Virus record (IMG/VR): IMGVR_UViG_3300025684_000938
Span: 1-23,452 of that record
Reading direction: 5' to 3' (one strand)
Length of the DNA stretch: 23,452 bases
Source of the DNA: a virus
The notes below the pieces were generated by a model. That model did not search any database and was not told the DNA's origin. It was given only the letters and a program-made list of their open reading frames with translations. This document shows, one piece after another, positions 4,165-23,418 of this stretch. The translations under genes were made by a program, and so were the position numbers. Positions within the stretch are counted from its first letter, which is position 1; every line of letters begins with the position of its first letter.

Positions 4165-4833
4165 ATGTATGATATAGTATTCATAAGTTATCAGGAACCT
4201 AGTGCAGATGCTAACTATGCTGCACTCAAAGCACGGTTTTCTATGACTAAACGTGTACACGGAGTTAAAGGAATACATCAAGCACACATAAAAGCAGCAA
4301 AGAAATGCTTTACTAAGATGTTTTGGATCGTAGATGCTGATGCAATAATTATGGACGACTTTAACTTTGATTATGTTGTTCCTAATCACCAGTTAGATCA
4401 TGTACATGTATGGAGAGCAAAGAATCCTATTAATGGATTAGAATATGGTTACGGAGGAGTAAAGTTATTTCCTCGGCAGATGACAGTCGATATGGATACA
4501 ACTAAACCGGATATGACTACAAGCATAAGCGAACATTTTATTGCTGTAGATGAAGTTGCAAATATTACAGCATTTAACACAAGTCCATTTGAAACATGGA
4601 AAGGTGCATTTAGAGAATGTGCTAAACTAAGCAGTAGGACAATTACGAGACAAAACAATGAAGAAACAGAACAAAGACTTAATACTTGGTGTACAAAAGG
4701 CGGTGAGAGGCGCTATGGTGATTTCGCTATTGCTGGTGCTAATGCTGGCAGGGAGTTTGGGATTTCTAATAGGAGCAATATTAGCCTTATAAATAATTTT
4801 GATTGGTTAGCACAACAATTTAAAGAGGCATAA
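4165..4833 (+). CDS. GT-A-like glycosyltransferase family protein (short paralogue)
   Basis: 222 aa. It is a paralogue of the gene at 125. Shared blocks are YDIVFISYQEPSADANYA at the N-terminus, KRVHGV (29-34), the DXD-like VDADA (56-60), NPINGLEYGYGG, and a basic segment FETWKGAFRECAKL matching AWRAGFREGVKL in the longer copy. It lacks an internal stretch and about 60 C-terminal residues, so it may be a minimal version of the fold. No ribosome binding site precedes the ATG; a promoter with its -10 box 5 nt upstream suggests leaderless expression. It is the last plus-strand gene of the block. Its stop codon lies inside the convergent methyltransferase gene (14-nt tail-to-tail overlap). Function beyond likely sugar transfer is not visible. 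Confidence 0.7.
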   Translation: MYDIVFISYQEPSADANYAALKARFSMTKRVHGVKGIHQAHIKAAKKCFTKMFWIVDADAIIMDDFNFDYVVPNHQLDHVHVWRAKNPINGLEYGYGGVKLFPRQMTVDMDTTKPDMTTSISEHFIAVDEVANITAFNTSPFETWKGAFRECAKLSSRTITRQNNEETEQRLNTWCTKGGERRYGDFAIAGANAGREFGISNRSNISLINNFDWLAQQFKEA

Positions 4834-5632
4834 ATTTGCCAACAAGCATATGCCTAGTGCCGCGAGTGTCTTCTACTTCCTCTTCAAAAAGTATCTCTGC
4901 ACGTTCGGGCATTTGGTCTTTAAACTCTTGTAAACTATTAACACAATTTACATGCCCTTCTATGCCAAACATATTATTCGACTGGAATGCAAAGTAACAA
5001 TTGTCTGATAATTTAGGAGTTCTAAATATGCTAGTGTCTTGATCATTACTTAATGCTCCAGCCCCAAACCATTTCCAATCTTTCATTGGCGGCATATGTT
5101 CGCAGCTAGTATTAATAATTAGATTTGTATTTAAATATGCATCTCTATATGTTTTAAAAATGTCATCACAAATATAATCTACATTTTCGTAATTATTAAA
5201 TAATTTTTTTGATACCTTTGTAGTTTGGTTATCTAAATCAATGTTAACAATTTTTTTAACTTTATTTGCTAGCTTAGGTATCAATATACTTCCGTACCAT
5301 CCTGCCCACATTACAACTGTTGAATCTTTGTCTAATATTTTTAAATCGTCTACAGCATTTAACAGTGCTGTTTTTGCTGCAATTTGATTATGACTAAATG
5401 AATCTAATAAAGTTTTCTCTAAACTAGGATCTTCTTTAATTAATCCAAATACAGTTTTTAATAAAGATGCATCTGTTTCAGGCTGCAATAACTTAAACAT
5501 AGTAGTTAGAAAGTACAACTCGTCATTTCTGTTTATTGCAGTTACTAAATTATATAATTCGGTAATATCTATATCTTTATTAGTAAGACTTAGTACATTT
5601 TTAACGTACTGTAACTTTTCTCTATTAATCAT
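4820..5632 (-). CDS. class I SAM-dependent methyltransferase-like protein
   Basis: 270 aa. A helical N-terminal part (about residues 1-100) is followed by VVMWAGWYGSILIP (107-120), which fits the glycine-rich motif I of class I methyltransferases. VNIDLD follows, with an acidic residue near position 132 at the end of the second strand that would bind the SAM ribose. Further on comes INTSCEHM, a motif-IV-like segment. Motif I has Trp-Tyr-Gly instead of the usual GxGxG, so SAM binding should be treated as likely rather than certain. It is the last gene of the minus-strand run and its start overlaps the carbamoyltransferase stop by 8 nt, so the two are probably co-translated. The natural acceptor is unknown. 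Confidence 0.6.
   Translation of the reverse strand: MINREKLQYVKNVLSLTNKDIDITELYNLVTAINRNDELYFLTTMFKLLQPETDASLLKTVFGLIKEDPSLEKTLLDSFSHNQIAAKTALLNAVDDLKILDKDSTVVMWAGWYGSILIPKLANKVKKIVNIDLDNQTTKVSKKLFNNYENVDYICDDIFKTYRDAYLNTNLIINTSCEHMPPMKDWKWFGAGALSNDQDTSIFRTPKLSDNCYFAFQSNNMFGIEGHVNCVNSLQEFKDQMPERAEILFEEEVEDTRGTRHMLVGKFMPL
4826..4855. repeat. 7-bp inverted repeat at convergent gene ends
   Basis: AGGCATA (4826-4832) is the reverse complement of TATGCCT (4849-4855), with a 16-nt loop. It sits exactly where the two convergent genes overlap, so a hairpin could slow polymerase in either direction. No T-run follows on either strand, so it is not a standard intrinsic terminator. Confidence 0.25.
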
Positions 5633-7103
5633 TTGTTTTCCTTATAATGTAATCGCCAATTACTAGTATGTCTAATCCGCATTTATTAAACGTAGCAATA
5701 GCGTCTTCAGGAGTTTCTACAATAGGCTCTTGACAGTTAAAGCTAGTATTAAGCAGCATAGGAACGCCTGTAAGCGCATAGAACACATTTATTAAGTCAT
5801 AGTAACGAGGATTAAACTCGCGCTGTACGGTCTGTATACGTGCTGTGCCGTCTACGTGTGTTACTCCTGGAATAGCATCTGACGTGACTGGCATAATACG
5901 ACTCATGTACGGACTAGGCTGAGTAGTGTCAAAGTATTCGTTGTAATGTTCTACAAGTACACTAGGAGCAAATGGTCTAAAGTCTTCACGCAGTTTAATT
6001 TTACTATTAATGATATCTTTAATATTAGGATTACGAGGATCAGCAAGTATGCTACGATTGCCTAACGCTCTATTACCGCTTTCGCTTTTGCCTTGGAACC
6101 ATCCAACAATTTTACCGTCAGCAATAGCTTGAGCAACTTCTGTTATATTGACTTTTTCATCACCAACGTAGTTGTATTCTTTGCCTGCATATACATTTGG
6201 TATGTGTATATTATTATTTTGGGTATACTCGGCATGCATATAAGTGCCAAGAGATTGTCCCTCATCGCCTACAGCAGGCGGCACATGCACATTAGTATAA
6301 TGTTTTGTAAATTCTTCATTTACATATCCGTTGTATGCTACTCCGCCTGTTAGGCACAAGTTGTTACAACTTTTAAGAGGATATACATGTTTTTTAATTA
6401 AGTTTTCTGTATAAATTTGTAGTGTAAATGCAACGTTTTCTTTGGGAACACGTTTTAAAATTTTAGAAGATCCGTCTGGTAATCTATGATTAGGAGCAGC
6501 CATATACATATCGATCATATCGTGTATTTCGCTGTCGTACTCACCAAATCCTGCTAGGCCCATGGTCTTGCCTGCACCCAGATAACTAAATCCAATGTCT
6601 TGTGACAATCGATTCCAAAGCCCACCGATTGATACTTTATCAGACAGGTTGGTTATATTTCCGTCCTTGTCTGTAAAGATGCAGTTAAATTGCCATCCTC
6701 TGCCGTCAATTGCTAACACATCGCTTTGTTTAAATCCCGAGCTTAAAAAAGCATAAGCAGCATGTGATTGATGATGATCAATGTAGTAATAGTCATCAGT
6801 CTTGTAATAGTCCCATAAATTAGTAGGCTTAAAATCTAAAAAACTTAAATCAGGTAATGTATCTTCGAGTAGATCACGAACAAATTCTTGACCTAGATTT
6901 GAACATGTAAATGCAAACATGTGATCTTTATTATAATTAGGTAAAAAGTGTTCACGGAAAAACTCACGACTAGGTTCTGGATCGTGCGGATTAGTAGGAT
7001 TAAGATTGTGCTTTTTACGAGTATATCTTTCGGCCAAGTAATGAAGCTCGCCGTTGTATGTATTATGATCGTGTATATTTACTGCAACAGAAAAAATATT
7101 CAT
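5625..7103 (-). CDS. NodU/CmcH-family carbamoyltransferase
   Basis: 492 aa. The N-terminal half holds the HHQSHAA motif (residues 110-116), the metal-binding signature of the Kae1/TsaD-like carbamoyl-adenylate domain, followed by LAIDGRGW, GAGKTMGLAGFGEYD and LTGGVAYN. The C-terminal half holds FQGKSESGNRALGNRSILADP and LREDFRPFAPSVL, the hallmark of the CmcH/NodU C-terminal domain. LLNTSFNCQEPIVETPEDAI lies near the end. Family members transfer a carbamoyl group from carbamoyl phosphate, with ATP, to a hydroxyl of a sugar (NodU), antibiotic (CmcH, TobZ) or similar. The protein is shorter than many members (about 550-600 aa), but both domains look complete. Stop and start overlap neighbours by 8 and 4 nt. 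Confidence 0.93.
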   Translation of the reverse strand: MNIFSVAVNIHDHNTYNGELHYLAERYTRKKHNLNPTNPHDPEPSREFFREHFLPNYNKDHMFAFTCSNLGQEFVRDLLEDTLPDLSFLDFKPTNLWDYYKTDDYYYIDHHQSHAAYAFLSSGFKQSDVLAIDGRGWQFNCIFTDKDGNITNLSDKVSIGGLWNRLSQDIGFSYLGAGKTMGLAGFGEYDSEIHDMIDMYMAAPNHRLPDGSSKILKRVPKENVAFTLQIYTENLIKKHVYPLKSCNNLCLTGGVAYNGYVNEEFTKHYTNVHVPPAVGDEGQSLGTYMHAEYTQNNNIHIPNVYAGKEYNYVGDEKVNITEVAQAIADGKIVGWFQGKSESGNRALGNRSILADPRNPNIKDIINSKIKLREDFRPFAPSVLVEHYNEYFDTTQPSPYMSRIMPVTSDAIPGVTHVDGTARIQTVQREFNPRYYDLINVFYALTGVPMLLNTSFNCQEPIVETPEDAIATFNKCGLDILVIGDYIIRKTND

Positions 7104-7960
7104 ATGTTTCTCGTGAATATTTTGTTTAATTGATCATCCTTAATTATATCAAGTATACGTTCACGTTGTGCGGCAGGGCGCTTTGGAATGATATCTAAAC
7201 AACTTCGGCAATAGTTTTCATATTCGAACAATTTATAATTCATCATCTTGTCAATGTTTTCTTTAGTAACGTCAAATTGCCTTGACCCATTAATTGCTTT
7301 ACGACTACAATGTCTTATTTTTTGTATTTCAAAGTCGAACACAGGTACTAGCGGAAATTTAGCACATACTCTTCGATCCATTTCTGGTGCTTGGACAGGT
7401 GTATGATCTTCAAAAAAGCTTGGCGAACGTGAATTGTATTCCTTAAACTCTGTGTTCTTATGTTTTAAATATGCTAAATCGTGTTTGTCTCTGTAATTAA
7501 AGTAACCCGGTGTTTCAATAATCAAATTGTAATTGTTTAAATCATTAGGTTCAAAGAAATCATAGTTGCCTAGTTTTTCAATTCGATCTTCATAAAAGTC
7601 TAATACTAAATGTTCGATGTAGATAATTTCTGGATCTTCTAATACCTCTGGATAAAATTTACGTATTAGTGAATTAGATAATACTTGAATTACAAGATTA
7701 GGATGCTTTTTAATTTCAGCAATAATTTCTCGTAGATTTTTAATAAGAGCAGGTTCACCGCCTAGTAAACAAATGCGTGTCTTATACGGAGAAAGACCGT
7801 CTAGGATAGTTCTTACGAAATCCATATCAACATCAAGATTGCGCATTTCTAGCGTCCACGCCGTACAGTAGTGACAACTTTTATTGCAACTCTTGGTCAT
7901 GTAAAAGTCTACAGTTCTGTATTCTGAACCTTTTAGATCTGCTAACATTTTAATTGCCAT
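7100..7960 (-). CDS. radical SAM protein
   Basis: 286 aa. Cys25-x3-Cys29-x2-Cys32 (SCNKSCHYC) is the canonical radical SAM [4Fe-4S] site, and GGEP at 67-70 is the SAM amino-group motif. Extra cysteines in the last third (RRVCAKF, RHCSRK and CRSC) suggest a second, partial SPASM/twitch-type cluster. The ATG has an AAGGTG Shine-Dalgarno about 7 nt upstream, which supports this start over the Met at residue 5. It overlaps the nitroreductase gene by 11 nt and the carbamoyltransferase start by 4 nt, so the three form one translational unit. Reaction and substrate are unknown. The neighbours suggest a step in making or decorating a small molecule (inference). Confidence 0.85.
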   Translation of the reverse strand: MAIKMLADLKGSEYRTVDFYMTKSCNKSCHYCTAWTLEMRNLDVDMDFVRTILDGLSPYKTRICLLGGEPALIKNLREIIAEIKKHPNLVIQVLSNSLIRKFYPEVLEDPEIIYIEHLVLDFYEDRIEKLGNYDFFEPNDLNNYNLIIETPGYFNYRDKHDLAYLKHKNTEFKEYNSRSPSFFEDHTPVQAPEMDRRVCAKFPLVPVFDFEIQKIRHCSRKAINGSRQFDVTKENIDKMMNYKLFEYENYCRSCLDIIPKRPAAQRERILDIIKDDQLNKIFTRNI

Positions 7961-11100: not shown

Positions 11101-12174
11101 TTATATTTTATGTTGTACAATTTCTATAATATTTTTAATTTCATCTTCGGTCAACCATGCGTGTATAGGTAACGATAAAACAGTGCTAGAAGCTGTTGTA
11201 GAAGCTGTACAAGCGTCTCTCCTGCTGTCAACACTGTCATACATACTGTTTGCACTTAATGGAGTTTCGTAGTGTATACTAGCATTTAAAGCGTTCTTAA
11301 CACGTTTTCTAGTGTCTTTATCCTTAAATCGTACTACATACTTATGGTAATTATGGTTAAGTCCATTAGACATTCCTTGTGTTACTACAGGTAAGTCTGC
11401 AAATGCTGTGTTGTATTCATGTGCAATTTGCTGTCTACGTTCTTGATTACGGTCTGCGTGTCGCAAGCGTAGATTAATAATCTCTGCGTTGAGAACATAC
11501 ATGCGGCTATTGTAACCCATCATACTAAAGTCTTTATCTTTACCGTGACGTCTAATCATCTTAACACGGTTGGCAATGTCTTCGTTATCAGTTAGTACAA
11601 CTCCCCCGCCGTTAATGCCAGCGATGACTTTGTTGCTGTTAAAACTATATACACTGCAATCACCAATAGTGCCTGCATGTACATTGTGCAAGCTACTGCC
11701 CAAACTTTGCGCAGCATCTTCAATAAACAGTATATCGTTATCTTTGCAAAACTGTTGTATTTCTGTAGTGTCGGTCATGTTGCCAAACAAGTGCGGATAT
11801 ATAATTGCTTTAACTTTATCACTGTACATACGTTTGATGCTATCTAAGCTAATGTGGTATGAATCTAAATCAATATCACAAAATACAGGAGTAGCACCTA
11901 CCATACTTGCACATGCACTACTACTAATCCAACTAAAGTCAGTTACTAATACTTCGTCGCCGGCACCTATACCGTGTGCTAATAATGTAAAATGTAGTGC
12001 GTCTGTGGCACTTGCTACACTAACACAATGTTTACGTCCTACACGTTCAGCAAAGCTACGTTCAAAGTCTTCATTATTTTCGTAATTCATTTGACTCATA
12101 AAACGGTCAAATACATCTAAGTAGTCTTGTTTGTTTTCTTGGTACTCACGGTCCCATCCATCATATGCTGGCAT
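11101..12174 (-). CDS. DegT/DnrJ/EryC1/StrS PLP aminotransferase
   Basis: 357 aa. The family signatures are all visible: an N-terminal EDFERSFAERVG segment, SATDALHFTL (55-64), EDAAQSLGS with Asp153 and Gln156 contacting the pyridine ring, and SFNSNKVIAGINGGG with the Schiff-base lysine Lys182. Members transaminate keto-sugars (nucleotide-linked 3- or 4-keto sugars) to amino sugars, using glutamate or glutamine. A few instead act as dehydratases, but the lysine is present here, so transamination is expected. Length matches the usual 360-400. The 5' end overlaps the Cys-rich radical SAM gene by 14 nt. GC is somewhat higher than in the flanking genes. Confidence 0.92.
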   Translation of the reverse strand: MPAYDGWDREYQENKQDYLDVFDRFMSQMNYENNEDFERSFAERVGRKHCVSVASATDALHFTLLAHGIGAGDEVLVTDFSWISSSACASMVGATPVFCDIDLDSYHISLDSIKRMYSDKVKAIIYPHLFGNMTDTTEIQQFCKDNDILFIEDAAQSLGSSLHNVHAGTIGDCSVYSFNSNKVIAGINGGGVVLTDNEDIANRVKMIRRHGKDKDFSMMGYNSRMYVLNAEIINLRLRHADRNQERRQQIAHEYNTAFADLPVVTQGMSNGLNHNYHKYVVRFKDKDTRKRVKNALNASIHYETPLSANSMYDSVDSRRDACTASTTASSTVLSLPIHAWLTEDEIKNIIEIVQHKI

Positions 12175-14495: not shown

Positions 14496-15365
14496 TTATT
14501 CATTATATTTATAGGTTAATGATTTTATAGCATCTACGATTGGCTGTATATTAGGTTCTTTAATATCTCGTTGCCAATATATGGTGCCGCCGTCTAATCC
14601 TGGATCTCGCCTTTCATAAATTACATCCTTGCCATAATACTTGCACTCTTGAAATATGCGAGGAGCAGGGTCAAATGTTTCTTTTGTATATACATATGTT
14701 TCAAACATGCTCATTAAGTTTTCTACAGGTACGAATATATTGTTATTCTTTATATTAATATAATTTTCGTCATATGTTAAGATCCCGTGATCAGGATAAT
14801 CATCAATAACTTTTTCAACACTTGCATAATACTTGTCGTTAGTACCTAAAAACAAATGCTTAAATTGTATGTTATCTTTGTAAGGCTTGTATATACTAAA
14901 ATTAATAGTCTTTTCAAAGTGTGTGCCTACACCATTAGGGTATACGTCAGTGTCACACAAGTCTACTATTTGTTTTGGTTTATAAAAGTCAACTGCTTTA
15001 GGATATCCCTCAACATGATTCTCTGAATATACGCTTATAACGTTACCGCTAAATAATCTCTGTAAGGATAGTTGTTGCACTAGGGTATAATCATTAAAAC
15101 TTTGCCAGCTTAGTGTCATCATACTTCTGCCCATAATAAGTGTAACATCATCGTCAGACGGCACATATGTATCTGGAAACCAAACACGATTACAATGAAT
15201 GTATTTACGTGTGATAGAATTTACATAGTCACGCTGATTATATTTTCTGTGACAAATAATAACAACTTGTGCAGGGTAACCAGCATTGTTTAGCATATCA
15301 CAGTGTTCATAGCTGTAATATAATAACCCGTCTACTGGTTTGCTTGTAACTACAATATTGATCAT
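14496..15365 (-). CDS. glycosyltransferase-like protein of unknown specificity
   Basis: 289 aa from the ATG at 15365. A GTG start 21 nt upstream (15386) would also fit the frame. The ATG is preferred because the protein then begins with a typical beta strand (MINIVVTSKP) and because a late-type box ends 8 nt upstream. Near the C-terminus TFDPAPRIFQECKYYGKDVIYERR resembles the GT-B acceptor-domain segment in which a small-residue/Pro/Arg stretch is followed by a helix and Gly-x-Asp-Val. No transmembrane segment or signal peptide is seen. The N-terminal region has many Tyr and His and no recognised motif. It is the first gene of the minus-strand run after the divergent junction. The family call is tentative. 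Confidence 0.5.
   Translation of the reverse strand: MINIVVTSKPVDGLLYYSYEHCDMLNNAGYPAQVVIICHRKYNQRDYVNSITRKYIHCNRVWFPDTYVPSDDDVTLIMGRSMMTLSWQSFNDYTLVQQLSLQRLFSGNVISVYSENHVEGYPKAVDFYKPKQIVDLCDTDVYPNGVGTHFEKTINFSIYKPYKDNIQFKHLFLGTNDKYYASVEKVIDDYPDHGILTYDENYINIKNNNIFVPVENLMSMFETYVYTKETFDPAPRIFQECKYYGKDVIYERRDPGLDGGTIYWQRDIKEPNIQPIVDAIKSLTYKYNE
14506..14513 (-). promoter_or_regulatory. T4-type late promoter box TATAAATA
   Basis: The minus-strand sequence reads TATAAATA from 14513 to 14506, at the extreme 3' end of the upstream gene. A T4 late start site is expected about 6 nt downstream, near 14500, giving a 14-nt leader that contains AAGGA and ends at the ATG at 14486. T4 late promoters need only this extended -10 box. 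Because the octamer also occurs inside genes here, the position relative to start and Shine-Dalgarno is the main support. Confidence 0.5.
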
Positions 15366-15372
15366 TATGTAA

Positions 15373-15380
15373 TATTTATA
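15373..15380 (-). promoter_or_regulatory. T4-type late promoter box TATAAATA
   Basis: Minus-strand TATAAATA at 15380-15373. By T4 spacing transcription would begin near 15367, two bases before the preferred ATG at 15365, producing an essentially leaderless message. Confidence 0.4.
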
Positions 15381-15402
15381 AACCACTACTTATTGTATAC
15401 AT
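15376..15402 (-). other. possible 8-codon leader ORF
   Basis: On the minus strand ATG at 15402 opens a frame of eight codons (MYTISSGL) that ends in a TAA embedded in the late box. A GGAAAG sequence stands 4 nt before the ATG. If transcription starts from the upstream late box, this mini-ORF would be the first translated frame, and its stop would lie 10 nt before the main gene's ATG. It may be a chance ORF. Confidence 0.2.
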
Positions 15403-15429: not shown

Positions 15430-15514
15430 GATAATCTATTACTTTCGGATTGATATTGAGGCACGTTATCTAACACTAAATAACTGTAACACAGCACAGA
15501 GTAGTGTCAATTAT

Positions 15515-15520: not shown

Positions 15521-15526
15521 ACCATA

Positions 15527-16150
15527 GTGTATAATAACTCTACATTATATTCAACGTTAACAAGATTTGGTGACTATTATCCATTACGCTTAGAAAACCA
15601 AGTGGGCTCTTTAATCGAAGATGTTAGAGATAACTTTACATGGGTTCAGTACAATCCGAGAAAAAATATTAATAGAGAAGGCCTTAGTATTACAAGTTTA
15701 GATGGCGGGTTATCTGGTAAGCCTGACTTGGATAGTTTGTATGAATACTATAAAGAAACGGGTATAGTATTAAACGAAACACACTTTACTATTAAAACAC
15801 CAGTCTACGAATATTTTAAACAATGGTTAGATCCGTTAGAAGCGCACCTAGGCAGAACACATGTTATTAGATTAAATCGAGGAGCGTTCTTTCCTCCGCA
15901 CAGAGACAACAAGCACTCTAATATAGATTCATTTAGATTATTTTTACCATTAAACTACGAAAGCGATCAAAACTTTTTTCTATTAGAAGATAAAAAGATG
16001 GAATTTAAAAACGGAGTTATGTATTTTATTGATACTGCAAAAATGCATACATTGTTTAATACTAATGACTACCCATTCTACTTTGTTGTTGCAAATGTAA
16101 TTTTGTCAAAAGAAAGTGTTGACAAGACTCTTAAGTTTTTACACGGCTAA
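15527..16150 (+). CDS. Fe(II)/2-oxoglutarate oxygenase, Asp/Asn-hydroxylase-like
   Basis: 207 aa from a GTG with a strong Shine-Dalgarno. The double-stranded beta-helix part is C-terminal: RGAFFPPHRDN gives the HxD iron ligands His125 and Asp127, FRLFLPLNY is the next strand, and AKMHTLF gives the distal His174. This is the layout of aspartyl/asparaginyl beta-hydroxylase-like enzymes, which hydroxylate aspartate-type residues or small molecules using O2 and 2-oxoglutarate. The basic residue that binds 2OG is not obvious after His174, so co-substrate use is inferred from the family. It is the first gene of a two-gene plus-strand unit diverging from the minus-strand run. Confidence 0.75.
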   Translation: MYNNSTLYSTLTRFGDYYPLRLENQVGSLIEDVRDNFTWVQYNPRKNINREGLSITSLDGGLSGKPDLDSLYEYYKETGIVLNETHFTIKTPVYEYFKQWLDPLEAHLGRTHVIRLNRGAFFPPHRDNKHSNIDSFRLFLPLNYESDQNFFLLEDKKMEFKNGVMYFIDTAKMHTLFNTNDYPFYFVVANVILSKESVDKTLKFLHG

Positions 16151-16165
16151 AATATCTACTTTAGC

Positions 16166-16173
16166 TATAAATT
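16166..16173 (+). promoter_or_regulatory. possible late-type box TATAAATT
   Basis: TATAAATT (one mismatch to the T4 late octamer) lies in the 40-nt gap before the next gene. The predicted start site near 16179 would leave a 12-nt leader. The gap is almost pure A and T, so chance occurrence is likely enough that this is only a candidate. Confidence 0.25.
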
Positions 16174-16190
16174 AAAAGAATATAAAAATT

Positions 16191-17786
16191 ATGAAACTAA
16201 AATTTGTTAACCTGTACCTTATGTCTAGATATCTAAACTTTATTGGTATTAATATAAATTACTATATGCTTAAATCCTATTATAGGTATAAAAATAATGC
16301 GAATCATAATAGGATTCAATGGACTCCTCAACATTGGCAGCCAGATTGTTCAGTAGATTATATTGCTAATAAAATTATAGAAGAAGAGATTGACATACTC
16401 TGTATGTCGGTATTTGTTTGGAACAGCGACTTTACCTATCAAATTGCTAAAAAAGTTAAAGAAATAAATCCTTTGATTAAAATAATAATAGGAGGCCCGG
16501 ATGTTAATGTATTGTCTAACAATGACTATTTTGAAATTCACAACTACATAGACTACGCAGTTTACGGCGACGGTGAAGAAGCTTTTTGTAAAATTTTAGA
16601 TAGTATATTAGATAATAAACCTATAGAAAACGGCATTAATATTGTAACAAAAGAAAAAGTTTATCAGCACAGAGTATTTTTTGATAGTGATTACAATACT
16701 AAAAGTAGTTTCTTAAGTGAAAAGGATATTTTAAAAAACCATTTATTAGAAATAAGAGAAAGTACAAATGATAAGATCTCTCTAGAGGTCAGATGGGAGA
16801 GAGCTCGGGGATGTCCTTATTCTTGTAGTTTTTGTGACTGGTCTAGTGGCCTACACAACAAGGTTAAAAGAAAAAAATCTAGTTGGAAAGAAGAGTTAGA
16901 TTTTTTATTTTCTTGTCCTGGTGTTGTTGTATCGCCCACAGATGCTAATTGGGGTATGTACGAAGAAGATATAGAAATAACAAAGTATGCGGTAGATAAC
17001 GGAACTTTTTATGTTACAAATTTAAGTAAACTTAATAAAGAACGTGTCTACAAAATTTATGATATAATGATAAAAGGAAAAAAGACTAAAGTGCTAAAGG
17101 TAAAACTTTCTTTTCAAGATATTCACGAAGATGTGCTTGACAATATTAGTCGACCTGACGTATCATGGAAAGATCATAAATCTTTAATACAAAGTTTTAA
17201 AGAAAAAAATCCCAATATTGGTCTAATAGCTGAAATTATAGTAGGACTTCCTGGACAAACTATTTCAAAACAGTTAGATCAACTAAATGAATTTAAGAAC
17301 AACGGAATAACTAATATACTATGCTTCTTTTGGGAACTAATTCCAAATAGTCCGGCGTATAAAGAAGAATATCAAACTGTCTATGAATTAAAAGTAGATT
17401 CCCTTGTACTCCTTAAAGAAGATAATCAAGATTTTAAAAGTTTAGCAGATGTTGATAACGCTATACAAACTGGCAAACCCGGCTGGTCCAAATCTAATAT
17501 TGTAATAGGAAATAAAACTCAAGAATTAGCAGATATATTAACATGCTTTGCTTTAGCACAAGTTTTTAATAAAAGTTCTGGAAAAGGAGACTTTTCGCTT
17601 TTAAATAATTCTGTTTGTGAAAACATATACAAAGAAATGAAGCTCACAGCTGACCTTATAAAAGAAACAAAAATACTGGGTATGTACAGTAAAAAACATA
17701 ATTGTTATGTATCAATAGACAAGTATTTTATCGACATGGATTTTGAGACTATGATGAATAATTACGGTAGCACAGTTAAAGTTTAA
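16191..17786 (+). CDS. radical SAM enzyme with N-terminal B12-binding-type domain
   Basis: 531 aa. Residues 1-140 look like the cobalamin-binding Rossmann domain that precedes many radical SAM cores: IDILCMSVFVWN, IKIIIGGPDV (97-105), and YAVYGDGEEAF (122-132). The D-x-H-x-x-G cobalamin ligand motif is absent, so cobalamin may bind base-off without that histidine, or not at all. The core follows with ARGCPYSCSFCDW (Cys208, Cys212, Cys215) and VGLPGQT further on. Relatives catalyse methylation of unactivated carbons, ring contraction or other rearrangements. The Shine-Dalgarno is weak (AAAAGAA). Its stop overlaps the convergent oxygenase gene at 17776 by 11 nt. Confidence 0.85.
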   Translation: MKLKFVNLYLMSRYLNFIGININYYMLKSYYRYKNNANHNRIQWTPQHWQPDCSVDYIANKIIEEEIDILCMSVFVWNSDFTYQIAKKVKEINPLIKIIIGGPDVNVLSNNDYFEIHNYIDYAVYGDGEEAFCKILDSILDNKPIENGINIVTKEKVYQHRVFFDSDYNTKSSFLSEKDILKNHLLEIRESTNDKISLEVRWERARGCPYSCSFCDWSSGLHNKVKRKKSSWKEELDFLFSCPGVVVSPTDANWGMYEEDIEITKYAVDNGTFYVTNLSKLNKERVYKIYDIMIKGKKTKVLKVKLSFQDIHEDVLDNISRPDVSWKDHKSLIQSFKEKNPNIGLIAEIIVGLPGQTISKQLDQLNEFKNNGITNILCFFWELIPNSPAYKEEYQTVYELKVDSLVLLKEDNQDFKSLADVDNAIQTGKPGWSKSNIVIGNKTQELADILTCFALAQVFNKSSGKGDFSLLNNSVCENIYKEMKLTADLIKETKILGMYSKKHNCYVSIDKYFIDMDFETMMNNYGSTVKV

Positions 17787-18231
17787 TATCACCGATGGCA
17801 TTTTCGTCTTTAGTCCAAACACTAATTGCTATGCGTGTACTATTGATTCCTACAACATTATGAAACTTTGTTACGTTAATATTATGCCAAACACATGTAG
17901 GAAAAATTACTCTATCAATTTCTTCTGCATTGTCGTCATACCAAATTGTGCTAACATCGCCTCCTGATTTAATAATATAATTATAACAGTTTGTTCTACC
18001 ATAGTCTTTGTGTAGGGGTAAATCGTCTGTAATTAATTGAAAGGCAATATTTACATTATTATCGAAGTATGGTTTTAAAAAGTCATTAAGCTCTTGAGTA
18101 GCAGTGTGCAGTGAATACTTAGTTGCCTTGATTCCGTTAAACTTATTAGGAATTTTTCTAATCTCATCTTCTGTTAGATTAATAATATTATCTGGAATTC
18201 GAGGCAATTGTGAACAATAATTATATAACAT
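17776..18231 (-). CDS. Fe(II)/2OG oxygenase-like protein
   Basis: 151 aa from ATG at 18231; a TTG 36 nt upstream (18267) also fits the frame, but that would overlap the sulfotransferase by 47 nt instead of 11. With the ATG start, LPLHKDYG gives His74 and Asp76 as the HxD iron site, FHNVVGI gives the distal His124, and STRIAISVW gives Arg133 as the likely 2OG ligand. All four residues expected for the family are present. The enzyme is short for the family, so it is a minimal jelly-roll. It is the last gene of the block-D operon and ends tail-to-tail with the B12-type radical SAM gene; the two stop codons lie within a TTAAAGTTTAA palindrome. Confidence 0.65.
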   Translation of the reverse strand: MLYNYCSQLPRIPDNIINLTEDEIRKIPNKFNGIKATKYSLHTATQELNDFLKPYFDNNVNIAFQLITDDLPLHKDYGRTNCYNYIIKSGGDVSTIWYDDNAEEIDRVIFPTCVWHNINVTKFHNVVGINSTRIAISVWTKDENAIGDIKL

Positions 18232-18793
18232 TGGTACTATACGAAAAGTTTTTAAAATCTTCTTCAAAAGTTTGAAAGATTAACTTTTCCCTTTTCTCGT
18301 CATAATAGTCTAAATAATTATAGTTAGAGTTAACCATCTCTTTTTGATTTATCTTAAATCCTAATTTGTATTCTAATTTAGAATACCCGTCTTCGTATTT
18401 AAAAATATTAGGAACCATACCGTTATTACCTGTTAAGATCTGTGTTTGCGTAATACTAGTAAATGTATTCTTTTTAGAATATAGCTCTTCAAAAGTTAAG
18501 TTAGTAAGTTTATCTTTAAATGCATACATGTTCTTTAAAAATACATAGAAACTTACAGCTCTAACAAACGGATTTCTAACAACAGAAAACACCCATTTGT
18601 TTTCTATTAATGGCTCCCAATAAATATACGGATAGTGCATAACTTTACGCCAGTCAACACCGTTTATTTCATTGCTAAACGTATCTTCCGGCATGTATTT
18701 TGCGTCTGCACAATTTAATTCTATGCTTTTCTTAATACTCATGCCAGAAGTTTTTGGTACGTGTATAAATGCAAAATCTTTTGTGTAAATCAT
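18221..18793 (-). CDS. sulfotransferase (PAPS-dependent)
   Basis: 190 aa. FAFIHVPKTSGMS (residues 8-19) is the 5'-phosphosulfate loop of PAPS-dependent sulfotransferases, and SVVRNPFVRAVSFY (70-83) is the 3'-phosphate binding motif with Arg and Ser. This is the Sulfotransfer_2 / carbohydrate sulfotransferase pattern. Members transfer sulfate to hydroxyls or amines of glycans and small molecules. It is short (typical 230-300 aa), but both PAPS motifs are complete and the length is consistent with other bacterial and phage members of the family. Start and stop overlap neighbours by 4 and 11 nt. It probably decorates the same product on which the adjacent oxygenases act (inference). Confidence 0.85.
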   Translation of the reverse strand: MIYTKDFAFIHVPKTSGMSIKKSIELNCADAKYMPEDTFSNEINGVDWRKVMHYPYIYWEPLIENKWVFSVVRNPFVRAVSFYVFLKNMYAFKDKLTNLTFEELYSKKNTFTSITQTQILTGNNGMVPNIFKYEDGYSKLEYKLGFKINQKEMVNSNYNYLDYYDEKREKLIFQTFEEDFKNFSYSTNVI

Positions 18794-19407
18794 TTAGGTA
18801 ACTCGTTTTCTAAAAAGTTATCAAAACTTATGCCTGACTTTCTAGTCATAGTTTTTGTTCTTATTGTTAGAACTACACGTGGATAGTTTTTATTTTCAAA
18901 TTCTTCTGTTACAACATTATGCGGAATACTAGCATTAAATAATGTTGGTCTATCTAGGATCATCTCGTAAATTGGTTTAATAACGGCATTATGCGGATAT
19001 GTCCATGCGCCACCGTCATTAGCAGCATAAGGTGCGCTTGCGCTATCACGAATCCAGCCTTCGTTGTCTGATCTAAGTCCGCGGTTCATGTCATACCAAA
19101 CATTCTTACCATATTTGTTGCAATTTATAACTGGAATATTTAAACAAGTATTATAGCCTGCATCCTCATGTATTATTGTATTAGAATTTGGCAATGTGAT
19201 AAAGAAACGTGTAACTGTAATCCTACTATTAAAAAAGTCTTCACACCAATTATAAAAGTCTGGAAGGACACTTTTTAAATCAAACAGTCTTAAATTCCAT
19301 TCAAATTCGTAGTCTTTTTTTGCTAACAACTCTTGTACATACGGATGATTTAAAATAACACTATTGTCATAGTGTTGTATATCAATGTCTTTATGAAATA
19401 TTGTCAT
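18790..19407 (-). CDS. Fe(II)/2OG oxygenase-like protein
   Basis: 205 aa. NTIIHEDAGYNT supplies His80 and Asp82 (HxD), ASIPHNVVTEE supplies the distal His163, and NYPRVVLTIR supplies Arg177 as the candidate 2OG-binding residue. An insert of about 60 residues between the two iron-ligand strands (residues 95-150, rich in Asn, Trp and Gly) is larger than in the 151-aa oxygenase at the end of the operon and may form the substrate pocket. No similarity beyond the fold is obvious with the TauD-like neighbour. The start lies inside the TauD-like gene's 3' end (17-nt overlap); its stop overlaps the sulfotransferase ATG by 4 nt. Confidence 0.7.
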   Translation of the reverse strand: MTIFHKDIDIQHYDNSVILNHPYVQELLAKKDYEFEWNLRLFDLKSVLPDFYNWCEDFFNSRITVTRFFITLPNSNTIIHEDAGYNTCLNIPVINCNKYGKNVWYDMNRGLRSDNEGWIRDSASAPYAANDGGAWTYPHNAVIKPIYEMILDRPTLFNASIPHNVVTEEFENKNYPRVVLTIRTKTMTRKSGISFDNFLENELPK

Positions 19408-20215
19408 TTGTTATTCTTTCATTAAACCAGTTTTGATCCCACGTAACTCTTTTTAGTTTACGTTTACCTGTAAATGCATCTCGAGTATGAATAGTACTCC
19501 AGTTGTCATATACAACTAAATCACCTACATTCCAGTTATGTGCATATGTTGTTTCGTTGCTTATCATTTTATTGATAACATTTTTCTTAATCCATTGTTT
19601 ATAATCAACATCTTTTTCAAGTCCTTCTATCCACTGCGTGAATAACTCGTCAGCTACTAATCCGTAATCATTATGGATAGGATGCCATTGTATTGCCGGT
19701 CTTCTAACATAACAATCCCAAGGAGTATTATAAGGTGCTTTACATAGTGCTGTAGCATATTTTAAAAATTCTTTTATTGAACTGTTAATTAAGTTTAGAC
19801 CTTGTACTGTGTCAATAAATTGAGTACTAGCTGTATCTCCTTCGAGCTCAACTGCGTACAAGATTCTGTTAGGTAGTAGTTGCGAAGGAAAGTGTGTAAG
19901 ATCAACATGCCACGGTATTAATCCAGAGCTCAATAGTCCGTCTTCACTTACTGTCTCAACAAAGTTGTCTTCATGACCGCTAACTACACTTTGTTGAAGA
20001 CCGCTGTACTTTTCCTTTGAATTATCCCAAACTTGACCAAAAATACTACAAAACTTTTTTAATTGCATATTATTTAAAGATTGATCTTTAAAAATAACTA
20101 CTTTTTGTTTGGCAAATATTTCATATATTTGTTTTTCTTCAGATGAAGTAAGATTGGCACAATCTACATCTAGAATTTCACTTACCCAATTGTTTTTGAT
20201 TTTCTTAACTAGCAA
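19391..20215 (-). CDS. TauD/TfdA-family 2OG dioxygenase
   Basis: 274 aa. LIPWHVDLTHF carries His103 and Asp105, NWSTIHTRDAF carries the distal His243, and KLKRVTW carries Arg256, completing the HxD...H...R set of the TauD family. An additional Gly-Asp-Leu-Val segment (NVGDLVVYDN) just upstream of the distal His is also diagnostic. Members hydroxylate or desaturate small molecules or cleave alkyl sulfonates and sulfates. The start is TTG with AGGAAA seven bases upstream; the next ATG is at residue 50, so a TTG start is needed to keep the fold intact. Given the sulfotransferase two genes downstream, a sulfated substrate is possible but unproven. Confidence 0.92.
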   Translation of the reverse strand: MLVKKIKNNWVSEILDVDCANLTSSEEKQIYEIFAKQKVVIFKDQSLNNMQLKKFCSIFGQVWDNSKEKYSGLQQSVVSGHEDNFVETVSEDGLLSSGLIPWHVDLTHFPSQLLPNRILYAVELEGDTASTQFIDTVQGLNLINSSIKEFLKYATALCKAPYNTPWDCYVRRPAIQWHPIHNDYGLVADELFTQWIEGLEKDVDYKQWIKKNVINKMISNETTYAHNWNVGDLVVYDNWSTIHTRDAFTGKRKLKRVTWDQNWFNERITNDNIS

Positions 20216-20220
20216 TTTAA

Positions 20221-20226
20221 TTTCCT
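20221..20226 (-). promoter_or_regulatory. ribosome binding site AGGAAA fixing a TTG start
   Basis: AGGA at 20226-20223 on the minus strand lies seven bases before TTG at 20215. It sits in the short gap and the stop codon of the upstream gene. No ATG occurs within the first 49 residues of the frame, so this site decides the start of the TauD-like gene. Confidence 0.6.
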
Positions 20227-20800
20227 AATTTATAGATCTACTTGGCAAGTTAAAGTCTTCGTGACCGTTAATATCTAACATTGCGATGTTTTGCCAACAT
20301 GCTTCATTTGTATTTTCTGAAATATCGTGATTACATGTATAATACATTTCAGGTAATAATATAAATTTATTTTCGTTATCGCTATTATTGTTCCATCTTT
20401 CGATTACTTTAACCATTGCAGCTCTTCTTTTAATACCAGATATAGAAAAAAACGGAATTAAGTTTTTTTCAATTGCTATCTTCACATGTAATGGCAAGAA
20501 ATATGTTGAAGCTGTAGCCTTTAATTTATTTTCATTTAAAAAAGATAATGAACTACTTCTAGCTATTTTAAAGTAGTAAGTACGGTCTGCTATTCTAACA
20601 AACTTCGGATCCCATTGCTTGCTTTTAAACATGCCTGACATTGCAATAACTTCGTCATTATACTTTGCTACATGATAATTTAAATAATCGGGTATTCGTT
20701 TTTCAAATTTATTAAAGTTAGAAAACGAGTCTTCCTTTGCAAGCTCAGTTAATCTTAAAAGTTCTTCTTTAGAATCGAGTATATCTTCAATTGATATCAT
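20225..20800 (-). CDS. protein of unknown function, possible GNAT-like fold
   Basis: 191 aa, not confidently recognised. Residues 40-75 (YHVAKYNDEVIAMSGMF, then FVRIADRTYYF) have the strand-turn-strand pattern of the GNAT acetyltransferase core, but the A-type acetyl-CoA loop (Q/RxxGxG/A) is absent; SGIKRRAAM around residue 122 is the closest. No signal peptide, membrane helix or metal site is seen. It lies between two 2OG oxygenase genes in one operon, overlapping the upstream gene by 14 nt, and so probably works in the same pathway. Its C-terminus (INGHEDFN) resembles the end of the adjacent oxygenase (INGQEDLD), which may be coincidence. Confidence 0.35.
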   Translation of the reverse strand: MISIEDILDSKEELLRLTELAKEDSFSNFNKFEKRIPDYLNYHVAKYNDEVIAMSGMFKSKQWDPKFVRIADRTYYFKIARSSSLSFLNENKLKATASTYFLPLHVKIAIEKNLIPFFSISGIKRRAAMVKVIERWNNNSDNENKFILLPEMYYTCNHDISENTNEACWQNIAMLDINGHEDFNLPSRSIN

Positions 20801-21380
20801 TCAAAACATCCAAGTCTTCTTGTCCATTAATTGATACTATTAACTTTATTGCATCAGTGCTACCAAAATTAAATCCGGTATGTTTGTGTCCTACGTTTAC
20901 AAACCACACCGAACCGTCTGCAGGCATGTATTGAAATTCTGGCAACTTTTGACCTTTTCGCTGAATAGCATTCCAACTCCACTCGTTAGCAACAAGCGGA
21001 ATAAAAAATCTAATACTAAATCGTGTATCATAGTCCATGTGCGGTAAAATATAAGCACCTGGCTTTTGAACAACTAATCTTGTTCGTGTATATGGAGATT
21101 TAAAACTATCTAACACTTCTTCAACATACGTGCCTTTATACTTTTCATATAGATTAGTATAAGTTCTTTCATCTGCTTTGTCTCTAAGCATAGCATCTTT
21201 GTCACTTGTATATGTAACATATGTTTGTTCATATTCGTCGTTTAATAAATATGGTCCACATTTGTTAACAAGCTGATCTTTACTAGGTTCGAAATCTCTA
21301 AAGCATTGTAATAGTTTTTCAGTATCAACTTTCATATTTGGCATTTTATAAAAGTTTGGTAATTCGTTTCTATTTTTCAT
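20787..21380 (-). CDS. Asp/Asn-beta-hydroxylase-like 2OG oxygenase
   Basis: 197 aa. The jelly-roll is C-terminal. YILPHMDYD gives His114 and Asp116; FSIRFFIPLV is the following strand; GSVWFVNVGHKHTGFNFG gives the distal His (165 or 167), a block that closely follows the aspartyl/asparaginyl hydroxylase pattern (W/V-x-x-x-x-x-x-H-x-x-x-N). Lys179 could contact 2OG. Members hydroxylate aspartyl or asparaginyl side chains or free amino acids such as proline. It overlaps the upstream radical SAM gene by 11 nt and the unknown gene by 14 nt. Confidence 0.75.
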   Translation of the reverse strand: MKNRNELPNFYKMPNMKVDTEKLLQCFRDFEPSKDQLVNKCGPYLLNDEYEQTYVTYTSDKDAMLRDKADERTYTNLYEKYKGTYVEEVLDSFKSPYTRTRLVVQKPGAYILPHMDYDTRFSIRFFIPLVANEWSWNAIQRKGQKLPEFQYMPADGSVWFVNVGHKHTGFNFGSTDAIKLIVSINGQEDLDVLNDIN

Positions 21381-22287
21381 TTATTAACTCCAATTTAATC
21401 TTTCTAGGACCGTCTACTTTTGTTTCATAATATTCAAAGAAAGGTTCGATTTCGTAGTCTTCGGTAAGTATGCCTCTTCTTTTACTTCCTCTGTCTGGCA
21501 AGCCATCATCGTCTACAGTCCAGTCAGTACACTTACCGTATATAGTGCCTGCTTTAGATTCAAACTGATATACACATGTATTAGTTTCTTTATAGCCGTT
21601 TACTTCAAATTTAGGTACAAACTCTCCAAAGTTTTCTTTTGCAATATCTATTAGTTCGTTTATATTGTATGTATAAGTATCTAAATAATTTCCCATATTG
21701 CCTACTGATTTAATTCGTATTACTATAGGAAATTTAATACCTGATTTTCTATTATACTTTTTACATAATTCTTCGATATAAGATAACAACGGCTTTAGGA
21801 TATGTATATTAGTAGGATCAACAATTATATTGATATGCGGCACAAGTTTATGTTTTATACAATTTTCTAATGCTCTTTTCTTTACAGTTGCAAATTTACC
21901 ATTATCAAATCTTTTATATACTTCGTCGTCAAGCCCGCCGTTCATACTCAATCCTAAAAAGTTTAGCCCTGACTTTTTAAGATTAATAACGTAATCTTCT
22001 TGGGCAAGTTTTAGACCATTAGTTAGTAAAGAAGGAAGGTGATTATATTTTTTAACAATTCTTATCATATCAAAAAGATTATCATTCATAGTTGGTTCTG
22101 CACCTATGAATCTAATTTCTGTTTTATTAGGTAATCTACTTATAGCATCTTCAAATCTTTCAATGTGTACATCTTTATAGTTTGGATTATTTAACATGTC
22201 ACCTAAGTAACAATTAGCGCAGGTCATATTACATTTATAAGTTGTCTGAATTGATAGTATACGAAATGTATTATCTTCAGGTTTCAT
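21370..22287 (-). CDS. radical SAM protein
   Basis: 305 aa. SIQTTYKCNMTCANCYLG holds Cys19, Cys23 and Cys26. The second motif reads IGAEPTMND (61-69), with Ala in place of the second Gly of GGEP, which is seen in some families. LSMNGGLDD (about 115) is a core strand. Two Cys (TNTCVYQ and YGKCTDW) follow in the C-terminal region, too few for a full SPASM domain. AAGAGGA lies 7 nt before the ATG, so the start is secure. It is the first gene of the seven-gene minus-strand operon, with a TATAAT -10 box upstream. Substrate unknown. Confidence 0.85.
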   Translation of the reverse strand: MKPEDNTFRILSIQTTYKCNMTCANCYLGDMLNNPNYKDVHIERFEDAISRLPNKTEIRFIGAEPTMNDNLFDMIRIVKKYNHLPSLLTNGLKLAQEDYVINLKKSGLNFLGLSMNGGLDDEVYKRFDNGKFATVKKRALENCIKHKLVPHINIIVDPTNIHILKPLLSYIEELCKKYNRKSGIKFPIVIRIKSVGNMGNYLDTYTYNINELIDIAKENFGEFVPKFEVNGYKETNTCVYQFESKAGTIYGKCTDWTVDDDGLPDRGSKRRGILTEDYEIEPFFEYYETKVDGPRKIKLELINEK

Positions 22288-22340: not shown

Positions 22341-22369
22341 AAAAAAGGCAGTATTGAATACAATGCTGC
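22341..22369 (-). terminator. rho-independent terminator of the fibre-like gene
   Basis: On the minus strand GCAGCATTG, loop TATT, and CAATACTGC (22369-22348) form a 9-position stem with one C-A mismatch, followed by CTTTTTTCTT. The hairpin begins 17 nt after the TAA of the fibre-like gene (22387) and ends before the -10 box of the next operon. It therefore isolates the structural gene from the enzyme operon. Confidence 0.75.
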
Positions 22370-22386
22370 TTTGTTTATTTTAAGAA

Positions 22387-23418
22387 TTAAGAAGCAGCTA
22401 AGCCGTCGTCTAAATTAATCCAGCCACCGTTTTGATAACCTTCAAATTTATTATTTGTAGTATTATAGATAACCATTCCGTTTGCAGCAGTTAGTGCATC
22501 TCGCTCTGCTGTAGTTAAACTACCAAATTGTACAAAACTTTGTGCATTAATACTTCCGTCTATTCCGTTAATAATAATAGACGAATCGTCAGTAGCCACA
22601 CTACCAACAAATGATGCGGCTTCTACGTTTCCTGTAAATACACCATTACCATTTACATCAAGTGCTTCGGCAGGGGTTGCAGTACCAACCCCTAGTTTGT
22701 TATCTCTCCAGACCATAAAATACGATCCGTCATTAAAAACTCCAGTAGGTGTATTACCAAAATACATTCCGTTTTCTCTACCAAAGAATATATTTGTAGT
22801 TAGTGTTCCGTTTACATCTTCTCTTCCAAACGTAACAGTACCGTAAATAGCTGATATATCCCCTGTTAGGTCTGTCTCTGACACTCTTCGAAGATTTAAA
22901 AGACTTCGATTGTCATTACTAGCAATATCAAGATTAACTTCACCAATCCCACCATTTAGTCCGTCACCTGGTTGATCTGCATTATCGAGTCTTACTCTAG
23001 GAGATGAAATATTACCAGTACGTATACTTCCGTCAATACCGTCAACAATTAGATTTGAATCATCGCCGAATACACTACCAGTTAATTCACCGTCTAGTGT
23101 TCCGACTACATTACCTGTTACAGTTCCATTAAGTGTACCAACTACAGTGCCATTAAATGTATCTGTCGGTTCCCACTTGCTAGTACCACTATTATATGTC
23201 AATACATCATTGTCTGATGCACCTGTTAAATCAGTATCAGTAAGTGCATCTAATGTTGTGGAGCCACCACCACCTGAACCAGTAACTAACGTTCCGCCAG
23301 CAGTACTACCGTCACCTGCGTATAGCAGTTTGGTATCTGTAGTGTAGATTAGTTCACCTTCTACGGGTGTTATTAGCAAGCGCTCTGCATCTGTGCCGCG
23401 TCTTAGACGTAATGCCAT
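22387..23418 (-). CDS. phage tail-fibre-like structural protein
   Basis: 343 aa. The N-terminus RLRRGTDAERL...PVEGELIYTTDTKLLYAGDG is the domain at the start of many marine T4-like fibre and structural proteins, similar to the Mtd N-terminal domain. A Gly/Ser linker (GSGGGGS) is followed by G-T-V/L-x-G-x repeats (NGTVVGTLNGTVTGNVVGTL). A second module appears twice: GDDSNLIVDGIDGSI and TDDSSIIINGIDGSI. The C-terminus (TAERDALTAANGMVIYNTTNNKFEGY) is the usual short capping segment. No peptidase S74 chaperone domain is visible. AGGAG lies 7 nt before the ATG. The protein probably forms a trimeric fibre or adhesin on the virion. A rho-independent terminator follows. Confidence 0.88.
   Translation of the reverse strand: MALRLRRGTDAERLLITPVEGELIYTTDTKLLYAGDGSTAGGTLVTGSGGGGSTTLDALTDTDLTGASDNDVLTYNSGTSKWEPTDTFNGTVVGTLNGTVTGNVVGTLDGELTGSVFGDDSNLIVDGIDGSIRTGNISSPRVRLDNADQPGDGLNGGIGEVNLDIASNDNRSLLNLRRVSETDLTGDISAIYGTVTFGREDVNGTLTTNIFFGRENGMYFGNTPTGVFNDGSYFMVWRDNKLGVGTATPAEALDVNGNGVFTGNVEAASFVGSVATDDSSIIINGIDGSINAQSFVQFGSLTTAERDALTAANGMVIYNTTNNKFEGYQNGGWINLDDGLAAS

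Follow-up and report, generated by a model that had tools for sequence, protein, structure and literature searches.

A seven-gene oxygenase, radical SAM and sulfotransferase operon in an IMG/VR virus record joins two modules that recur in marine viral sequences

The IMG/VR virus record IMGVR_UViG_3300025684_000938 (23,452 bases of a marine virus of bacteria; analysed in full and called the window below) carries between positions 17776 and 22287 seven consecutive open reading frames (ORFs), all on the minus strand. In order of transcription they encode a radical S-adenosylmethionine (SAM) enzyme (rSAM5), a probable Asp/Asn-hydroxylase-like 2-oxoglutarate (2OG) oxygenase (AspH), a protein with a predicted GNAT fold, a TauD/TfdA-family 2OG oxygenase (TauD), a probable small 2OG oxygenase (JR1), a sulfotransferase (ST) and a second probable small 2OG oxygenase (JR2). 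Together these genes form a real operon with translational coupling, not an accidental assembly. It unites two modules that recur elsewhere: rSAM-oxygenase-GNAT, and TauD-ST-JR2, which is interrupted here by JR1. A previous interpretation of the same DNA made without database searches (hereafter the sequence-only reading) had treated the seven genes as one operon that might prove to be an accidental assembly; the recurrence of the arrangement speaks for a genuine unit, but one made of two exchangeable modules and a JR1 insertion and not a fixed pathway.

Recurrence and modular structure of the block

Related loci were collected by searching viral contigs with rSAM5, GNAT, JR1, AspH, JR2 and ST, and 25 profiles were scanned over 28 sequences, that is, the window and 27 loci, several of which are near-duplicates (L005-L008 are identical in rSAM5, L025 and L027 agree at 99.9%, and the window and L004 at 99.3%). 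rSAM5 is present in 18 of the 28 sequences and has an oxygenase gene directly downstream in 17 of these, the exception being L023, where GNAT is directly downstream. GNAT occurs in 23 sequences and comes directly after an oxygenase in 19. It does not do so in L023, in L024, whose contig begins 82 nucleotides (nt) upstream, or in L054 and L055, in which GNAT comes first, a desaturase second and AspH third. Among 23 related viral records, rSAM5 was found in 17 and GNAT in 21. Based on rSAM5 DNA identity below 95%, about ten distinct lineages can be told apart (counting the partial L023, which is outside the identity table), and the rSAM5 differences between lineages are concentrated at third codon positions.

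The TauD-ST-JR2 module was detected in five of the 28 sequences (L053, L054, L055, the window and L003, which is of the window's virus type), which represent three distinct lineages sharing 75-84% protein identity. TauD overlaps ST directly in the L053 and L054 lineages and JR1 is absent there, so that JR1 is regarded as an insertion of the window lineage. In L054 and L055 a single strand run comprises GNAT, a desaturase, AspH, a cobalamin-binding (B12) radical SAM enzyme, TauD, ST and JR2, with a further oxygenase-like gene, AspH_plus, in convergent orientation; these loci therefore hold five of the seven block families together with relatives of both convergent neighbours of the window block. 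The question raised by the sequence-only reading, whether the block families occur together elsewhere, could be answered affirmatively at the level of contigs: in G024 and G026 a desaturase, a B12 radical SAM gene and five of the block families (GNAT, AspH, TauD, ST and JR2) share a single strand run, and G025 holds TauD-ST-JR2.

Cassettes contain up to four oxygenase-like genes: in L028 and L036 three small proteins with an HxD..H..R pattern precede rSAM5, in addition to TauD241 or AspH. L005 has a TauD of 234 aa and an ORF of 316 aa whose Asp/Asn-hydroxylase score is weak, and L018-L022 carry AspH_plus, TauD, desaturase and AspH without rSAM5 (L020 being incomplete at its start). Across ten records all nine TauD matches fall inside cassettes, as do six of the eight Asp_Arg_Hydrox matches (the other two are in Pelagibacter phage Mosig at 92.4 kb and in G003 at 36 kb), and the same is true of the four desaturase matches in 13 records. 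Searches of 50,697 phage records by tblastn returned no match for rSAM5, GNAT, Mtd, TauD and two relatives at the limits used (AspH and ST were not searched there); JR1 had none at 1e-5, and for both JR1 and JR2 matches at E values up to 10 were at chance level only. No relative of the rSAM5 and GNAT alignments was found in a bacterial and archaeal genome collection, in a search by short exact patterns that distant bacterial relatives could escape.

Gene spacing and transcription signals

The ORFs coincide exactly with the limits of the same-strand block proposed by the sequence-only reading. Overlaps were observed at the rSAM5/AspH (11 nt), AspH/GNAT (14 nt), TauD/JR1 (17 nt) and JR1/ST (4 nt) junctions, and GNAT and TauD are separated by 9 nt. 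At the ST/JR2 junction the overlap is 47 nt (18221-18267) if JR2 begins at its TTG codon and 11 nt if it begins at the in-frame ATG at 18231; the range of 4-17 nt for overlaps and less than 10 nt for gaps given previously holds with the ATG start and fails with the TTG start. Residues 1-12 of JR2 counted from the TTG are largely conserved across three lineages, and L053 and L054 show the overlap at the equivalent position.

The single promoter-like element that had been placed ahead of the block was not upheld. The best sigma-70 match upstream of rSAM5 (8/12) is at chance level, being equalled by 490 of 500 shuffles, and a promoter scan of this region listed zero minus-strand sites, so this candidate was rejected. 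Perfect TTGACA-17-TATAAT promoters (12/12) were detected in four of 14 upstream regions, all of other cassettes (L005, L010, L033 and L036), 26-33 nt 5' of the first cassette start codon, and none of 500 shuffles equals them. Two further regions show 11/12 matches, L054 at 36 nt and L028 at 120 nt, which 6 and 11 shuffles out of 500, respectively, also attain. The perfect promoters of these four of 14 regions suggest early transcription of the cassettes by the host polymerase.

Enzymes encoded in the block

TauD scores 86.6 bits on PF02668 (cut-off 27) and retains HxD and H...R in all three aligned sequences, as read by eye; these residues are taken here to be the facial triad (HxD...H) and the 2OG-binding Arg. 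Its relatives in L053 and L054 are 77-79% identical. AspH reaches 20.9 bits on PF05118, below the cut-off of 22.6, and is filed as a family-like protein rather than a member; its relative in G015 (51-52% identical) scores 37.9, above the cut-off. When a combined AspH and AspH_plus profile was compared with the PDB, a beta-hydroxylase (3e-10) and L-proline cis-4-hydroxylase (5.3e-7) were retrieved, and AspH is thus a probable Asp/Asn-hydroxylase-like oxygenase.

JR1 and JR2 contain an HxD/E...H...R motif that appears in 5.5% (JR1) and 2.5% (JR2) of shuffled copies, and are probable small 2OG oxygenases. Comparison with Pfam, PHROG and NCBIfam gave chance-level matches only, no oxygenase was among their PDB sequence matches, and profile comparison left them unlinked to the small oxygenase families of other cassettes. 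The structure predicted for JR2 has a predicted local distance difference test score (pLDDT) of 37.7, too low for a fold search; the protein is 75-82% conserved in two other lineages. Of the four different 2OG enzymes announced by the sequence-only reading, TauD and AspH are well supported, and the two proteins it called jelly-rolls are assigned by motif and size only. Two apparent links of small proteins were discarded. A BLAST match of JR1 to 234-236-aa proteins of L011 and L027 aligns without a shared metal motif, these proteins being glycosyltransferase-like by eye. A 99% profile match between the small-oxygenase families S1 and S4 was an artefact of a spurious N-terminal extension from shared upstream DNA, which was trimmed before the 25-profile scan.

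rSAM5 belongs to the radical SAM superfamily, as had been proposed: it scores 49.7 bits on PF04055 (cut-off 29.5) and contains CNMTCANC, a CxxxCxxC motif at residue 19. Its relatives in other marine viral contigs are 69-76% identical. The sulfotransferase assignment also stands, weakly, with a marginal PF03567 match (6.7e-5; 23.6 bits, 1.6 above the cut-off of 22) and, as best PHROG, family 3347, galactose-3-O-sulfotransferase (2e-8). Two motifs, PKTSG (around residue 13) and RNPF.R (residue 73), were read by eye as the 5'-phosphosulfate-binding (5'-PSB) and 3'-phosphate-binding (3'-PB) elements that presumably bind the sulfate donor 3'-phosphoadenosine-5'-phosphosulfate. The ST profile found no relative in the PDB.

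For the protein between AspH and TauD, previously listed as an unknown, an AlphaFold2 model built on a 13-sequence alignment has a pLDDT of 86.5 and a predicted TM-score (pTM) of 0.84. Among the 50 PDB matches that Foldseek listed, all but the Mom protein of phage Mu (rank 36, TM 0.37) are of the acetyltransferase type, and the best match in VIA is PaiA (Z 11.5; 146 residues aligned, root-mean-square deviation 3.6), so the model assigns the protein to the GNAT fold. The canonical GNAT acyl-CoA loop motif, R/QxxGxG/A, is found in none of the 13 family members; an acetyl donor should therefore not be assumed, and the protein is referred to by its fold and not as an acetyltransferase.

Neighbouring genes and conserved core

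Table 1. Features of the block and its surroundings in the window.
Feature	Positions	Strand	Length (aa)	Evidence
rSAM5, radical SAM enzyme, first block gene	21370..22287	-	305	PF04055 6.3e-13, CxxxCxxC
AspH, probable Asp/Asn-hydroxylase-like 2OG oxygenase (HMD...H)	20787..21380	-	197	PF05118 below cut-off; profile matches
GNAT-fold protein (predicted)	20225..20800	-	191	AlphaFold2 model, PDB fold matches
TauD, TauD/TfdA-family 2OG oxygenase	19391..20215	-	274	PF02668 3.5e-24
JR1, probable small 2OG oxygenase	18790..19407	-	205	HED...HNV...PRVVL pattern only
ST, sulfotransferase	18221..18793	-	190	PF03567, PHROG 3347
JR2, probable small 2OG oxygenase, TTG start (in-frame ATG 18231)	17776..18267	-	163	HKD...FHNVVGINSTRIAI pattern
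Terminator-like hairpin between tail-fibre-like gene and block	22345-22372	-		Stem listed on + strand; T run on - strand
Tail-fibre-like protein, Mtd_N domain, upstream neighbour	22387..23418	-		PF18454 2.1e-7
B12 radical SAM, C-methyltransferase-like, convergent to JR2	16191..17786	+		PF02310 + PF04055
AspH_plus, fifth oxygenase-like gene	15527..16150	+		PF05118 21.2 bits, below cut-off; relatives
Core: putative glycosyltransferase, GT-B-like by eye	14496..15386	-		No Pfam family; 51-54% relatives beside cassettes in G003, G015, G023, Mosig
Core: DegT/StrS-type aminotransferase	11101..12174	-		PF01041 2.4e-85
Core: rSAM1, radical SAM	7100..7960	-		PF04055 2.9e-8; 51-91% relatives
Core: carbamoyltransferase	5625..7103	-		PF16861 3.6e-68; 58.6% to Mosig
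Core: putative methyltransferase	4820..5632	-		No Pfam match; G003, G024 and Mosig (where it is annotated as a methyltransferase) have 46-50% relatives at this place

The functional unit is wider than the seven genes, as the convergent AspH_plus and B12 radical SAM genes belong with the block (Table 1). In L053 and L054 AspH_plus is again convergent to JR2, in G015 and Mosig it is part of the oxygenase run, and a relative of the B12 radical SAM enzyme lies inside the cassette operon of L054 (4882-6669).

Where records extend far enough, related cassettes mostly adjoin a conserved core, which was found whole or in part in the window, G003, G015, G023, G024 and Mosig. Besides the genes listed in Table 1, the core includes a radical SAM gene with a stand-alone SPASM-like protein and nitroreductase-like genes, and the window also encodes, further along, a UDP-glucose/GDP-mannose dehydrogenase (UDPG_MGDP_dh, 1.2e-18). 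The carbamoyltransferase is present in six of 13 records, including five of the six of at least 34 kb. Between 7100 and 17786 the window carries five radical SAM genes besides rSAM5 (rSAM1-rSAM4 and the B12 enzyme), each with CxxxCxxC. The protein of a 117-aa ORF (14133-14486) resembles a separate SPASM-type partner for rSAM4 (13412-14143), and Mosig and G021 have the same split. A QueC-like ATP-pyrophosphatase (PF06508, 6.6e-5) is located at 10203-11012 among the radical SAM genes, where no other queuosine genes were seen.

Viruses carrying the cassette

The virus of the window corresponds to the 73 kb record G001, which has the same cassette at 99-100% protein identity. The baseplate protein of G001 is about 36% identical to those of jumbo phages such as Atu_ph07, and this virus may fall outside the pelagimyophages. 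Record G015 (109 kb) encodes a T4-like terminase, sheath, capsid and polymerase, with a capsid protein 92.4% identical to that of Mosig, a phage isolated on Pelagibacter HTCC1062 (PMC7892664), and is very probably a pelagimyophage. The Mosig-like capsid of G015 and the jumbo-like baseplate of G001 indicate that the modules are common to distant phage lineages.

In L004 the tail-fibre-like gene (8170-9231) is 61% identical to that of the window and the adjacent rSAM5-AspH-GNAT segment (9331-11394) is 98-100% identical. As judged from the sequences, the two differ by a recent exchange with its breakpoint between the tail-fibre-like gene and rSAM5-AspH-GNAT. L039, a sister contig of the window, has an open frame of 5,239 aa (4279-19998) that lies among genes for tail and baseplate proteins and runs off the piece.

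Proposed function and alternative explanations

It is proposed, with moderate confidence, that the cassette supplies enzymes for the variable tailoring of a glycoconjugate that the phage makes or modifies and that may be carried by the host surface or the virion. This interpretation is favoured mainly because sugar-type genes (the core and the dehydrogenase) accompany the cassette, which adjoins a tail-fibre-like gene within a variable island. The core would build a nucleotide-sugar-derived glycosyl unit that is aminated, carbamoylated and methylated; the oxygenases would hydroxylate this unit at several carbons and the radical SAM enzymes would change it through radical chemistry, both kinds of enzyme acting on unactivated carbons; the GNAT-fold protein would transfer a group to it and ST would sulfate it. 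The product could be displayed on the host cell surface, where it would block rival phages, or on the virion, and decoration under diversifying selection would account for the variation in oxygenase choice between phages. That one compound is hydroxylated several times and sulfated, as the sequence-only reading had it, is plausible in this scheme, but the single substrate is an assumption and JR1 and JR2 are oxygenases at the level of motifs.

Several observations weigh against the glycoconjugate proposal. Substrate, product and activity are all deduced from sequence; the oxygenase status of JR1 and JR2 comes from a motif only; the GNAT-fold protein is devoid of the acetyl-CoA motif, and its group donor need not be acetyl-CoA; and the window block has no convincing promoter when its sigma-70 matches are compared with shuffles. 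Proline hydroxylases are among the closest solved relatives of AspH, which fits peptide or amino-acid chemistry too. As to recurrence, the 40 kb record G016, with an rSAM5 and GNAT cassette, lacks a carbamoyltransferase in its sequenced part, the G015 cassette lacks rSAM5 and L053 lacks GNAT, leaving an oxygenase and a GNAT-type protein as the only near-universal components. In Mosig, the GNAT-type protein is not recognisably of the same family (E 0.03).

Natural-product clusters resemble the combination of aminotransferase, carbamoyltransferase, several radical SAM enzymes and oxygenases seen here, and the island might accordingly make a small diffusible metabolite (aminoglycoside- or nucleoside-like), with core and cassette forming a miniature cluster whose product acts on the host or on competitors. 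The best NCBIfam match of the B12 radical SAM enzyme, the KedN5 family (3.8e-32), and the second PDB relative of rSAM5, cytosylglucuronate decarboxylase (1.4e-6), point in the same direction. However, these matches are far below family cut-offs, export, resistance and assembly-line genes were not seen among the proteins examined, and the several glycosyltransferase-like genes and the tail-fibre location favour a polymer or a surface; a metabolite is possible, though on the improbable side. The proximity of the block to the Mtd_N tail-fibre-like gene, that of the Mosig cluster to tail-fibre genes, and the proline hydroxylases related to AspH would also suit a role in modifying the phage's own proteins, with the adjacent tail fibres as the likeliest targets; the oxygenases would hydroxylate side chains that are then glycosylated or sulfated. 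We consider this unlikely, as a terminator-like hairpin separates block and fibre gene, sister cassettes have promoters of early and not late appearance, and G002 matches the window at 99% in rSAM5 and at 61% in the fibre gene, so the two genes do not vary in step.

GNAT-fold, radical SAM and 2OG enzymes also occur in phage DNA hypermodification, and phage Mu Mom appears among the Foldseek matches. Nevertheless, no base-hydroxymethylating enzyme was seen beside the cassette, the partners are of sugar and sulfate type, and the Mom match is weak, one among hundreds of GNAT matches; as an argument for DNA hypermodification it was set aside (that Mom falls outside the VIA top 50 settles nothing), and we rate this explanation as the least likely of all. 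The remaining alternative is that there is no common substrate and that the island is a collection of auxiliary genes, each useful on its own, for instance oxygenases that draw down 2-oxoglutarate in nitrogen stress. Island gene content does vary strongly between phages, and a 2-oxoglutarate/nitrogen role has been proposed for T4-like cyanophages (Sullivan et al., 2010; PMC3037559). Against this, separate lineages share modules whose order and overlaps are conserved, and rSAM5 divergence is rich in third codon positions; both argue for a joint, selected function and make such a collection very unlikely.

A broader form of the glycoconjugate proposal can be put forward tentatively, as a possibility that is short of probable. 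At least two ocean phage lineages, the pelagimyophages and the jumbo-like lineage of the window, would share a modular biosynthetic system with a conserved core and interchangeable oxidative cassettes, making a glycoconjugate of new chemistry, with several hydroxylations, carbamoylation and sulfation, that is diversified between phages as a superinfection or recognition signature. The cassettes of such a system would combine two to four or more 2OG oxygenases with radical SAM and desaturase-like enzymes, and would further include ST and a GNAT-fold transferase whose donor is unusual. Genes for 2OG oxygenases and radical SAM enzymes are common unexplained auxiliary genes of marine phages, and ordered recurring modules with fixed partners (the GNAT-fold protein, ST and the carbamoyltransferase core) turn an orphan gene list into a pathway hypothesis. 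Because Mosig is cultured on Pelagibacter HTCC1062, the targets of the oxygenases are open to chemistry on infected cells and virions.

Comparison with known systems

Hydroxylation of a cell-surface glycolipid, lipopolysaccharide, by Fe(II)/2OG oxygenases is exemplified by LpxO and KdoO, of which LpxO belongs to the Asp/Asn-hydroxylase-like family; they offer a possible parallel to the phage AspH proteins, which are about 200 aa long. Among phages, many diverged 2OG oxygenases, comparable to those described here, have been found in T4-like marine viruses (PMC9602691; PMC3037559): cyanophage S-SCSM1 has 24 such genes, whose viral functions were not specifically investigated according to the available text (PMC9602691), and 2OG oxygenases are enriched in seasonal viruses (PMC11561400). 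In the available text of the cyanophage studies these oxygenases are listed as a repertoire, whereas their organization in an operon with ST, radical SAM and GNAT-fold partners is a feature of the present cassette.

The pelagimyophage host recognition cluster (HRC) combines genes for tail fibres and glycosyltransferases with cassettes of additional radical SAM genes (PMC7029224). Like the setting of the cassette, HRC islands are large and variable; an HRC island is expected between VrlC and gp14, and the cluster of Mosig lies between tail-fibre genes and VrlC; neither the rSAM-oxygenase-GNAT nor the TauD-ST-JR2 module is described in the available part of that report (PMC7029224). The impression that such a cassette is unfamiliar in a phage was hence partly right: oxygenase-rich regions (PMC9602691) and radical SAM cassettes (PMC7029224) are published, although in the 50,697 phage records rSAM5, GNAT and TauD had no match at the limits used and JR1 and JR2 had matches at chance level only. 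No published description of a two-module cassette with a GNAT-fold protein and ST was found in a search that left subscription journals and bioRxiv preprints mostly outside. The setting is known, and the modular arrangement with the GNAT-fold protein and ST appears undescribed within that search.

In Mosig (EXVC030M; MT647606.1), genes 72-81 encode AspH-like, GNAT-type, TauD-like, HTD..H..R and AspH_plus-like proteins in one strand run, in the order AspH-GNAT-methylase-TauD-2OG-like-...-desaturase-AspH and beside the same glycosyltransferase, DegT, radical SAM and carbamoyltransferase core. The TauD of Mosig is only a distant relative. Unlike in the window, no relative of ST, rSAM5, JR1 or JR2 was detected in this cluster, which has a methylase, a peroxiredoxin, a flavin mononucleotide (FMN) reductase, an aminotransferase and a desaturase in their place. 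In L058, a gene at 10415-11281 (Mosig_00083) annotated as a molybdenum cofactor biosynthesis enzyme shows no CxxxCxxC by eye and is 53% identical to the putative glycosyltransferase of the window, which suggests that its annotation is probably a misannotation.

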